NCBI GenBank assembly: GCA_018667995.1
Contig: JABIQT010000580.1
Span: forward strand, 1 to 6,374
Length of the DNA: 6,374 bases
Direction: 5' to 3'
Source: Candidatus Latescibacterota bacterium
Lineage (GTDB): Bacteria > JAAXHH01 > JABIQT01
Shown here: positions 2,537-6,374 of the stretch, in pieces
Layout: every line of letters starts with the position of its first letter
Position numbering within the stretch: position 1 is the stretch's first letter
Translations under genes and position numbers: made by a program
The notes under the pieces: generated by a model
Database searches by the model: none
Told to the model about the DNA's origin: nothing
Seen by the model: the letters and a program-made list of their open reading frames with translations, nothing else

Positions 2537-4024
2537 ATGCAACCAATCGGATGGTCCATGTTTCCTCGCTTCACCCTCTCAGTTCTCGTGACACTGTTCT
2601 GGGTATCAGTCTGTTCAGCCCAGAAACCGCCTCCACCTGACTCGGGCCCATTACGCCTTGTACCCCTAATGTTTACCAGCAACAAGGGCGGTCTCTTCTC
2701 GGCGGAACTGGGTCAATTGCGCGTACCGGAGAATCGGACGAACAGAAAATCAAAGCGTGTCACGCTTCCGATTCTGAAGTTGAAGAGTCGAATTGAGAAA
2801 CCAGGCCCTCCCATCATCTATCTGGCAGATGGCCCAGGTGCAATGGCGACGAAAGAAGGATTCATTCTTGAATCCATATTCCAACCGCTGCTACGCAATC
2901 ACGATATTATCCTCATGGACCAACGCGGCGTAGGAAGATCAAAACCACGAGTATTCTGGGAATCGCCGGCGTCCCAGCCTTTGGACTACTTCCTCTCTTA
3001 CGAAAACATGTTGATGCAGGACCGCTGGGCCAGTGAACAAGCGGTTGCGCGATTTAAGAGGCAGAAGATCGACTTCAAGGGCTATAATACAATTGAGAGC
3101 GCAGATGACCTGAAGGACCTGGCGGCGGCACTCGGAGTGAAGAAACTTATCCTTGTGGGATATGGATACGGCACGCATCTGGCCCTGGCGACTATGAGAC
3201 GGTATCCTGGCCTCGTACACTCAGCGGTCCTTGTAGGACCAAAGGGGCCAGACCACCTTCTGATGCTTCCATCAACCATGGATCAGCATTTCCAGAATGT
3301 TTCGGATCTGGCTGTAAAAGACCAAGCGACACGAATCAAAGTTGCCAACCTGACGAGTCTTACAAAGATAATCCTGCGACGACTCGATCGGGTGCCGGTT
3401 GGCCTATCCGTTCGTGATCGCCGAACACGGAAAATGGTCCGTGTGGAGCTGGGTAAATTCGGACTTCAGTGGATAATCGCACGTCAATTGAGCGAAAAAA
3501 AGTACTTTGTGGAATTGCCTGCAATGCTACATCTCATTGCGAAACAAGACTACTCAATGTTGCGCAGACATGTAGAACGGCTCTACAACGAGACCGGGCG
3601 CGGAATCTCAGGAATGTCATACCTGATGAGGTTGCACTCGGGCGCCACTATGGACCGTCTCGCCCTCATCGTGAGGGAATCCGGGGACGCCATCCTGGGA
3701 AATGCAATGAACTACCCAGTCTTTGATGTACCTGATATATGGGGCCATCCCGACCTCGGAAATTCCTATAGGACTCAGATCGACAGCGAACACAGGGTTC
3801 TCTTCGTAAGTGGCTCGCTGGATCCGGGGGCTTTGCCTTCCCAAACAGAAGAGATACGTCAGGGATTTCCCAACGGAGTCCACTGCGTCGTTGAAAACGC
3901 AGATCATTCGGATGTACTCGCCCACGAACGCGCCCAACGGGTCATCCTGGATTTCCTGGTTGATAAGCCGGTCAATGATATGCGTATCTCGTTGAACCCG
4001 CCTGATTTCCTCCCTCTCCCCTGA
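2537..4024 (+). CDS. Exported alpha/beta-hydrolase, TAP/proline iminopeptidase-like, lacking the catalytic serine
   Basis: This 495-residue protein has the order and length of TAP-like alpha/beta-hydrolases: N-terminal 'RVPENR' segment, YLADGPG loop (family usually YLAGGPG or HGGPG), DQRGVGRS (128-135), nucleophile elbow, helical lid, and a TAP-like C-terminus with 'GFPNG'. The elbow reads G208-Y-G-Y-G212, where the family has G-x-S-x-G, so residue 210 (codon GGA, 3164-3166) is Gly in place of the nucleophile Ser. The presumed acid D429 (SGSLDP) and base H457 (NADHS) are kept. Residues 8-28 form a signal peptide, probably cut after C-S-A28, so the protein acts outside the cytoplasm. ATG 2537 and in-frame ATG 2558 are both possible starts; neither has a strong Shine-Dalgarno, and 2558 gives the more compact signal peptide. 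Ordinary peptidase activity is unlikely. It may be a binding or scaffold pseudoenzyme, or use another chemistry. The fold call is firm; function is open. Confidence 0.9.
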   Translation: MQPIGWSMFPRFTLSVLVTLFWVSVCSAQKPPPPDSGPLRLVPLMFTSNKGGLFSAELGQLRVPENRTNRKSKRVTLPILKLKSRIEKPGPPIIYLADGPGAMATKEGFILESIFQPLLRNHDIILMDQRGVGRSKPRVFWESPASQPLDYFLSYENMLMQDRWASEQAVARFKRQKIDFKGYNTIESADDLKDLAAALGVKKLILVGYGYGTHLALATMRRYPGLVHSAVLVGPKGPDHLLMLPSTMDQHFQNVSDLAVKDQATRIKVANLTSLTKIILRRLDRVPVGLSVRDRRTRKMVRVELGKFGLQWIIARQLSEKKYFVELPAMLHLIAKQDYSMLRRHVERLYNETGRGISGMSYLMRLHSGATMDRLALIVRESGDAILGNAMNYPVFDVPDIWGHPDLGNSYRTQIDSEHRVLFVSGSLDPGALPSQTEEIRQGFPNGVHCVVENADHSDVLAHERAQRVILDFLVDKPVNDMRISLNPPDFLPLP

Positions 4025-4280: not shown

Positions 4281-5429
4281 TCAGTCAACGCCTATAACCA
4301 TTACTGTCACATCGTCGAGATAGATTCCTTCGCAGAAGTGGTCTACGGCGTCCATGATGACACCCCGCAACGCGTCCGGTGATTCAGCACGATGGGCTCT
4401 GGCCAAATCAATTAAATGGTCCTCCCCGAATTCCCTTCCGGAGGGATCCATGGCTTCGTTTACCCCATCGGTGTACAGCACCAGTCGGTCGCCGGGGAGA
4501 AGCCTGATCTCGCCACACTCATAGTCCCAATCGGAGAGTGCCCCGACGACAAGCCCTCCATCCGTGAGCTGTTCTGTGGCCCCATTCTCTCGGACGACTA
4601 TGGGATTGTTGTGTCCCGCATTGGTGTACGCAAAGCAGCCACTGCCGGCGTCAAGGATACCGTAAAACAAGGTCACAAATTTATTGTCCGGTATGTTGGA
4701 GGCCAATGTACGATTCACTTTTCTGCAGAGGCTCTCAGGGGCAACGTCGGCGGCGGCATAGGCATGCACCAAGGCCTGAACATTGGACATCAAGAGTGCA
4801 GCAGGCATACCCTTGCCGACCACGTCCGCTATGCAGATCCCCCTGCTGGTTTCACTCAGAGGCAGTACATCAAAATAGTCGCCTCCCACATGTCTTACCG
4901 GACGCCAATCGTGGGAAATGTGGAACCCATCAGGATTACTGACATCAGATGGCATGAGCGCCCGCTGGATCGATCGGGCCTCATCTTCCTCTTGAGATTT
5001 TGTGCTCTCGGCATGTCGGACCGAGCGCCCTTGAACAATCTGCGCCTCTATGAGTCCGAGGAGATAGTCGTTGTCCCAGGGCTTCTGGATGAATTCCCGA
5101 AGATCACCACGCATGGCCTCAACCGCAAGCTCGACGCTACCCCATGCCGTCATGGCAATCACAGGCAGACTCTTGTCAAAAGCCCGTACGCTGGAAAGCA
5201 GATCCAGGCCTTCCTGACCCGAGGTAGTGTCCCGAGCATAATTCAGATCCACAAGCAACACATCGTAATCGCGATTTCTAATAGACTCCAGGACCGCACC
5301 CGGCGACGTCACAGAATCGGTCTCATAGCCCTCGGCCTTTAACAAAAGCTCCAAGGCAGACAGAACATCTTCCTGATCGTCGGCGATTAAAACGCGTGAT
5401 CCCAAGCGTGTCGTACTCGAAATTGCCAT
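4281..5429 (-). CDS. Response regulator: receiver domain fused to SpoIIE/PP2C-type phosphatase
   Basis: This 382-residue cytoplasmic regulator dephosphorylates a protein partner under control of its receiver, as in RsbU-like partner-switching systems, where the substrate is an anti-anti-sigma STAS protein. The receiver spans about 11-130: acidic pair D17-D18, phospho-acceptor D61, T94 and K116 are all present. Its 'NYARDTTSGQEG' and 'QKPWDN' segments resemble receivers usually attached to sigma-54 AAA+ activators. A short helical linker (about 135-155) leads to the PP2C-like domain (about 150-382), with metal-binding aspartates in GGDYFD (D184), IADVVGKG (D202), TDGVNE (D321) and LDDVT (D372/D373). 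All key residues are intact, so it should be active. ATG 5429-5427 is chosen because AGGAG lies 8 nt upstream and the receiver begins right after it. An upstream in-frame ATG at 5507 lies beyond the sigma-54 promoter and is rejected. No STAS, kinase or sigma-factor gene is in the window, so the partner is unknown. Confidence 0.93.
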   Translation of the reverse strand: MAISSTTRLGSRVLIADDQEDVLSALELLLKAEGYETDSVTSPGAVLESIRNRDYDVLLVDLNYARDTTSGQEGLDLLSSVRAFDKSLPVIAMTAWGSVELAVEAMRGDLREFIQKPWDNDYLLGLIEAQIVQGRSVRHAESTKSQEEDEARSIQRALMPSDVSNPDGFHISHDWRPVRHVGGDYFDVLPLSETSRGICIADVVGKGMPAALLMSNVQALVHAYAAADVAPESLCRKVNRTLASNIPDNKFVTLFYGILDAGSGCFAYTNAGHNNPIVVRENGATEQLTDGGLVVGALSDWDYECGEIRLLPGDRLVLYTDGVNEAMDPSGREFGEDHLIDLARAHRAESPDALRGVIMDAVDHFCEGIYLDDVTVMVIGVD

Positions 5430-5472
5430 GTCTCTATCTCCTGCTCCACTAAGTATCATCTTATCTGGTAAT

Positions 5473-5488
5473 TGCAATACGCGTGCCA
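5473..5488 (-). promoter_or_regulatory. Sigma-54 (RpoN) -24/-12 promoter of the REC-SpoIIE gene
   Basis: On the minus strand the sequence reads TGGCACG (5488-5482), a 4-nt gap CGTA, then TTGCA (5477-5473). This matches the consensus TGGCACG-N4-TTGCW at every fixed position. The invariant GG (5487-5486) and GC (5475-5474) are exactly 10 nt apart. Transcription would begin about 12 nt further on, near 5462, leaving a leader of about 33 nt with AGGAG before the ATG at 5429. Such promoters need an ATP-dependent enhancer-binding activator, which is not encoded here. Confidence 0.8.
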
Positions 5489-5740
5489 CAACCGGATGCT
5501 CAAACAACGGTATGGCAAGTTATATGGTTGATTGATAGTCCAAGTGGTACTCGGGGCCATCGGAAGTCACGAGGCTGGCGACTTGCAGGCCCGAAGACCC
5601 TAGAAATCCCGGTCGGATATCGGATGTCTCAGCATCTGTTTTTCTCTCCACGATAGCCTGATCGCCAGACCAACCTTCATGAAAATGGACCATCATGTCC
5701 GGATACGGGAAGTGATATCTCGATTGTGGAATTTTCACGA

Positions 5741-5822: not shown

Positions 5823-6116
5823 ATGATACCCACAGCGCGTACGACAGATACGGAGCAGGAGCAAAGGACCCACCGGGCCATCCTACCGCCATACGCTGTT
5901 ATTCTGCACAATGATGACGATCATGACATGGACTATGTGGTGGAGGCGCTTCGGAAAAGCGTATCGGAACTCTCGGAGGATGAGGCGTTTCGGATCATGA
6001 TGGAGGCGCATCGGAACGGTACGGCCGTAGTCATTGTCTGCCCGTTGGAGCAGGCTGAACTCTACAGGGACCGTCTACGGAGTTTTGGCCTGGGTGCCAC
6101 CGTCGAAAAAGCGTAG
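5823..6116 (+). CDS. clpS: ClpS-family ATP-dependent Clp protease adaptor
   Basis: ClpS is a small cytoplasmic adaptor that binds proteins with bulky N-terminal residues (N-degrons) and hands them to the Clp AAA+ unfoldase. This 97-residue protein has a flexible N-terminal tail (about 1-20) for engaging the unfoldase, then the core starting at 'PPYAVILHNDD'. By comparison with E. coli ClpS, pocket residues N30, D31, D32, gatekeeper M36, M59 and H63 line up with N34, D35, D36, M40, M62 and H66. The canonical 'GVCGVFT..VAETK' segment is replaced by 'AVVIVCPLEQAELYRDRL', while the protein still ends in the typical VEKA. This divergent form resembles ClpS variants I associate with Planctomycetota-type genomes. 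GGGGA (5811-5815) lies 7 nt before ATG 5823. No clpA/clpC is adjacent, so the partner unfoldase is unknown. The family call is strong; equivalence to E. coli ClpS is less certain. Confidence 0.9.
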   Translation: MIPTARTTDTEQEQRTHRAILPPYAVILHNDDDHDMDYVVEALRKSVSELSEDEAFRIMMEAHRNGTAVVIVCPLEQAELYRDRLRSFGLGATVEKA

Positions 6117-6118
6117 CA

Positions 6119-6374
6119 TCAGATCCAGGAATCCAGGGGATTTCCAGACTCCTCCAACGGCAGGGCCACTCGGGCTCCGTTTATATGGGACAATCGTGCG
6201 GCCATAGCCATAGCCATATGGCGTCTGGCGGTCTTTCCCATGCATAATTCATACTCTGGTTGTCGGCCTTCAATCATATCTATCATCGACCGCGCCATCC
6301 TGTTGTGGGCATTGATCCACTTCTGGCCACCGGATACATCCTCGTGGGCGAGCACTTCCCACCGATCATCGACA
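6119..6374 (-). CDS. C-terminal end of a Gfo/Idh/MocA-like oxidoreductase, N-terminus beyond window edge
   Basis: This is an 84-codon open frame entering from the right edge and ending in TGA at 6121-6119. The pattern resembles the C-terminal helix and tail of Gfo/Idh/MocA NAD(P)-dependent oxidoreductases: 'NRMARSMIDMIEGRQPEYEL', then 'ARRHMAMAMAARLSHINGARV', then 'ALPLEESGNPLDSW'. In that family a 'SLPLxxRxHPL' tail after the 'AxxxSxxxGxxV' helix is common. The NAD(P)-binding Rossmann domain and the catalytic residues are outside the window, so substrate (often a sugar or inositol) cannot be stated. A GTG at 6355-6353 is only an internal valine, since the frame stays open upstream to the edge. 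The gene is convergent with clpS, with just 2 bp between stop codons. Assignment rests on a short C-terminal pattern. Confidence 0.72.
   Translation of the reverse strand, partial: VDDRWEVLAHEDVSGGQKWINAHNRMARSMIDMIEGRQPEYELCMGKTARRHMAMAMAARLSHINGARVALPLEESGNPLDSWI

Follow-up and report, generated by a model that had tools for sequence, protein, structure and literature searches.

A TAP-like/Hip1-type gene with its frame intact

The window, by which we mean the whole stretch of 6,374 nucleotides analysed here, carries on its forward strand an open reading frame at positions 2537 to 4024 (stop included) that encodes 495 amino acids from an ATG start with no internal stop. The open frame, the Pfam matches and the existence of full-length homologues identify it as the gene of a TAP-like/Hip1-type alpha/beta-hydrolase homologue, and the description of the gene as full length in an earlier note on this DNA holds. 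The protein scores above the curated cut-off for PF00561 (Abhydrolase_1; 61.8 bits against 25.8) and just above that for PF08386 (the TAP-like C-terminal domain; 21.7 bits against 21), whereas its score for the prolyl aminopeptidase equivalog TIGR01249 (33.3 bits) lies far below the cut-off of 259.75. Among proteins of solved structure, Hip1/CaeA of M. tuberculosis and TnmK2 are nearest in sequence. Residues 1-28 (positions 2537 to 2620, forward strand) were recognized by eye as a probable signal peptide, with R11, a hydrophobic stretch at 12-26 and CSA before Q29; the AlphaFold model places a helix at residues 10-27, within this putative peptide. The hydrolase homologue is probably secreted. 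In codon usage the gene resembles its neighbors, exceeding a composition null by about 3 standard deviations. The source assembly is fragmented and of metagenome type (6.06 Mb in 1165 contigs, 85% complete).

Divergent from the hydrolase gene, a MacB_PCD/FtsX (ABC-type) permease gene occupies positions 1 to 2262 of the reverse strand and runs off the start of the window. Downstream on the reverse strand (4281 to 5507) lies a response regulator fused to a SpoIIE-type, RsbU-like phosphatase, which has 41 matches in its own genome and whose closest match in the phylum (59%, genome G013) is fragmentary and contains a stop. A 97-residue ClpS-family protein (PF02617, 72 bits) is encoded at 5823 to 6116 on the forward strand, and the C-terminal end of an incoming gene, which by sight may encode a Gfo/Idh/MocA-like oxidoreductase, lies at 6119 to 6373 on the reverse strand. 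When the frames around the eight closest homologues were read, no neighboring gene was seen in common with the window, and our analysis, neighbors included, identified no substrate, ligand or partner of the protein.

The nucleophile serine is missing from the elbow

The nucleophile elbow (residues 208-212, positions 3158 to 3172, forward strand) is encoded by GGA TAT GGA TAC GGC and reads G-Y-G-Y-G, as the earlier note had it. Gly210 (3164 to 3166) thus stands where a Hip1-type/TAP-like member of S33 has the nucleophile of G-x-S-x-G. In the 78-row alignment, which includes the window protein, all 77 relatives have Ser at this position, and a profile search over all fetched loci returned 144 aligned matches, of which 137 have Ser, 3 have a gap and 4 are copies of the window gene. 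As Ser was found in 137 of 137 aligned matches from outside the window gene, GYGYG cannot be put down to chance alignment. The other two members of the triad are in place: the catalytic acid Asp429 (GAT, 3821 to 3823) and the catalytic base His457 (CAT, 3905 to 3907), both on the forward strand, are matched by Asp and His in 77 of 77 relatives, which bears out their earlier identification.

Other invariant positions have changed as well. The oxyanion loop, GGPG in the family, reads DGPG in the window protein, with Asp98 (GAT, 2828 to 2830, forward strand) replacing a first Gly that is found in 77 of 77 relatives. In the alpha/beta-hydrolase fold the oxyanion hole is formed by the residue after the nucleophile and by residues after strand 3 (PMC11878206). 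Since the GGPG-loop position follows strand 93-96 in the AlphaFold model, D98 sits at the oxyanion hole and is a second catalytic-site loss beside Gly210. The earlier note had thus been right that ADGPG replaces AGGPG, but it had treated as secondary what is a loss in the catalytic site, and it had assigned the oxyanion side to DQRGVGRS, which is a conserved motif (DQRG, residues 128-131, positions 2918 to 2929, forward strand, is kept here and in at least 90% of homologues) yet is distinct from the GGPG loop and post-nucleophile residue that make up the hole. Among the structural matches is PDB 1xqv, titled 'inactive F1-mutant G37A'; G37 of tricorn factor F1 presumably lies in the same loop. 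Two further replacements, both on the forward strand, fall at positions of 98% weighted conservation: Ala196 for Arg (3122 to 3124) and, three residues past the acid, Ala432 for Thr (3830 to 3832). Ala432 aligns with T466 of Hip1, for which a T466A mutant structure exists (PDB 5uoh). A pocket motif is also changed, by E236K, T241L and K243M.

The predicted fold is that of Hip1

An AlphaFold (AF2) model built from 57 aligned rows has a mean pLDDT of 92.1 and a pTM of 0.89, and in it the elbow keeps both its strand (204-209) and its helix (211-222). Structures of Hip1 (Rv2224c, the S33 type of MEROPS; PDB 5ugq, 7sfm and 8e5w) match the model over their whole length, with Z of about 30, an rmsd of 3.8-3.9 A and about 420 aligned residues (in one case Z 30.3 and 3.8 A over 421), whereas ordinary proline iminopeptidases and esterases reach Z of 20-22. 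On the strength of these matches the predicted fold is the whole Hip1-type fold, long helical cap included. The order of the triad is also that of Hip1 (S228, D463, H490), in which Thr466 occupies the position of Ala432. Unlike the window protein, Hip1 is an active serine protease/esterase that retains its Ser228, and identity in the structural alignment is about 16%. TnmK1 and TnmK2 (PDB 8e18 and 8g5t), Streptomyces enzymes of tiancimycin biosynthesis, match the model in fold at Z 29-30, with about 420 residues aligned; TnmK2 differs in keeping GYSYG and has VGPG as its oxyanion loop.

The change is private to the window lineage as far as sampled

A scan of genome contigs from 84,980 species yielded 61 relatives. 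The closest, at 38-41% identity, are full-length proteins from Acidobacteriota assemblies (L069-L072) and from Telluribacter humicola (L073; Spirosomataceae), which resemble the window protein in length and motifs but have GFSYGTHL where it has GYGYGTHL, and also retain GGPG and the Thr past the acid. In the tree the Telluribacter protein groups as sister to the window protein (support 100/96), with which it shares an MR-x-x-SGA variant, yet it carries Ser; the branches are 0.94 for the window protein and 0.64 for its sister, and the program warns that both are long. The earlier note had proposed aligning homologues to see whether Gly at 210 is conserved in a clade. Every homologue found carries Ser, and no Gly210 clade was seen in the phylum itself (16 genomes, one of them the gene's own), in a sample of about 380 genomes from the whole domain, in 195 genomes from the phylum of the best hit, in the contig scan of 84,980 species, or in viral contigs or plasmids. 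As far as sampled, then, the Ser-to-Gly change is private to the window lineage; the serine-less form is so far one gene in one genome, with its nearest homologue at 41%. No second family member (a paralogue that it might regulate) was found in its own genome, and no family member at all in the 15 other genomes of the phylum, also by a family profile search.

Two of the homologues look split or short. The one from Candidatus Aminicenantes (L110:4291-5590) is seemingly split into two matching pieces that lie in different frames or have a break between them, and a gammaproteobacterial one (L118:5908-6717) stops at 270 amino acids and so lacks the end that carries the acid and base of the family.

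Constraint on the rest of the protein

At columns that are at least 95% conserved the window protein deviates in 5 of 30, where the count for serine-bearing relatives with branches of similar length is mostly 0-3; L045, from a distant subfamily, has 8 deviations in the most conserved columns. The count is somewhat high in columns of 70-95% conservation (27 of 70, against 22 of 69 for L073 and 22 of 68 for L089); variable columns show an ordinary number of deviations, or one at the upper edge of normal. In the 72 columns where 95% of relatives have a hydrophobic residue, the core is violated once, much as in the other relatives. We also simulated neutral drift from the present sequence and asked how often a sequence came through free of stops, with 4 or more invariant residues lost and the core violated once at most: the joint probability peaked at 0.009 near 0.03 substitutions per site, in a simulation that was designed post hoc, after the pattern had been seen, and that ignores indels and codon bias. 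This result speaks against a long decay and does not prove maintenance. What the protein does present is the loss of a catalytic residue from an otherwise folded and intact homologue, which is one mark of a pseudoenzyme.

Discussion

We favor, with moderate confidence, the reading that the window gene encodes a secreted TAP-like/Hip1-type alpha/beta-hydrolase that has ceased, within its own lineage, to work as a serine hydrolase but has kept its fold. Under this scenario Gly210 would have replaced the nucleophile Ser, Asp98 the leading Gly of GGPG and Ala432 the Thr that lies three residues past Asp429, while the folded core would have stayed under selection. Acyl-enzyme catalysis is not to be expected of such a protein because the nucleophile is absent and the oxyanion loop disturbed; formation of the acyl-enzyme would be impossible, and the old cleft would hold a peptide, an ester or a partner protein uncut. 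The secreted pseudoenzyme of the earlier note is partly upheld: the two catalytic losses and the constraint on fold and core make it the best reading, but Gly is private and all homologues found have Ser, which goes halfway to what that note had named as a refutation.

Hip1 itself offers an analogy. Its S228A mutant has a CD spectrum identical to that of the wild type and cleaves neither azocasein nor GroEL2, although it appeared to interact with GroEL2 more strongly and robustly (PMC4022732), so that fold and substrate binding are kept. By this analogy the window protein may bind without cutting, and it is plausibly now a non-cutting binder. There is also precedent in the fold for a Gly at the serine position, namely mammalian DPP10, which is inactive and serves as a channel subunit (PMC4873792). 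DPP10, CGI-58/ABHD5, Arb2, DUF687 and DUF3530 all represent a non-enzymatic or altered use of the alpha/beta-hydrolase fold (PMC4873792, PMC11878206), but they belong to other subfamilies and are conserved, with partners that are known or conserved, whereas the window protein is a single gene. In the literature searched we found no direct precedent in the Hip1-type/TAP-like family for a bacterial Ser-to-Gly alpha/beta-hydrolase pseudoenzyme.

An unlikely alternative is recent relaxation, in which this strain could do without the enzyme and the gene is now at the beginning of decay, with no new function. The residue losses are private to the window gene, several pocket residues are altered too, and the absence of the family from the rest of the phylum makes the gene look acquired and dispensable. 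Yet there are zero stops in 495 codons, the core is as clean as that of serine-bearing relatives, codon use is neighbor-like at about 3 standard deviations above the null, and neutral drift fits with a probability of about 0.01 at best in the post hoc simulation. An error of sequencing or assembly at the elbow, which the single assembly might suggest, strikes us as extremely improbable given that (i) GGA is two changes from any Ser codon, in agreement with the earlier statement that no single base change would suffice; (ii) several other invariant positions changed independently and (iii) the reading frame is intact.

It is also conceivable that the protein is still an enzyme. We think it quite unlikely that the chemistry has changed, such that the Asp429-His457 dyad would support a reaction free of nucleophilic Ser, resembling that of a lyase or of a cofactor-free oxygenase. 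Asp and His are strictly kept despite the loss of Ser and of the oxyanion Gly, and some alpha/beta-hydrolase lyases use a D/E-H dyad without serine (PMC11878206). Moreover, biosynthetic relatives of the fold, TnmK1 and TnmK2, are among the nearest structures, and TnmK2 too lacks the first oxyanion Gly. Against this, TnmK2 retains its Ser, no biosynthetic cluster surrounds the window gene, and the retention of Asp and His may be structural or reflect too little time. The more specific claim of a serine-less Hip1-type protein, the first in its family, that pairs Asp-His with a remodelled oxyanion loop in a nucleophile-free reaction, we regard as having a slim chance. It is very unlikely that the nucleophile has moved and the protein still works as a serine or threonine hydrolase: Asp and His are present and S427 and S458 adjoin D429 and H457 in sequence, but Ser is always on the elbow in this fold (PMC11878206), residues 209-212 include no Ser, Thr or Cys, and the oxyanion Gly is lost too. 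The shifted catalytic residue raised in the earlier note likewise finds no candidate there, T213 being ordinary (Thr or Ser in relatives).

Within a family of secreted peptidases and esterases, the window protein is the only homologue without the nucleophile Ser among all that were gathered. If the loss of serine-hydrolase catalysis has indeed been followed by maintenance as a pseudoenzyme, Hip1-type proteins would be reusable for binding, and the window protein would be a natural counterpart of the Hip1 S228A and T466A mutants. Some caution in annotation is also indicated: because the domain scores exceed the cut-offs of hydrolase families, automated pipelines would probably call this protein a hydrolase.
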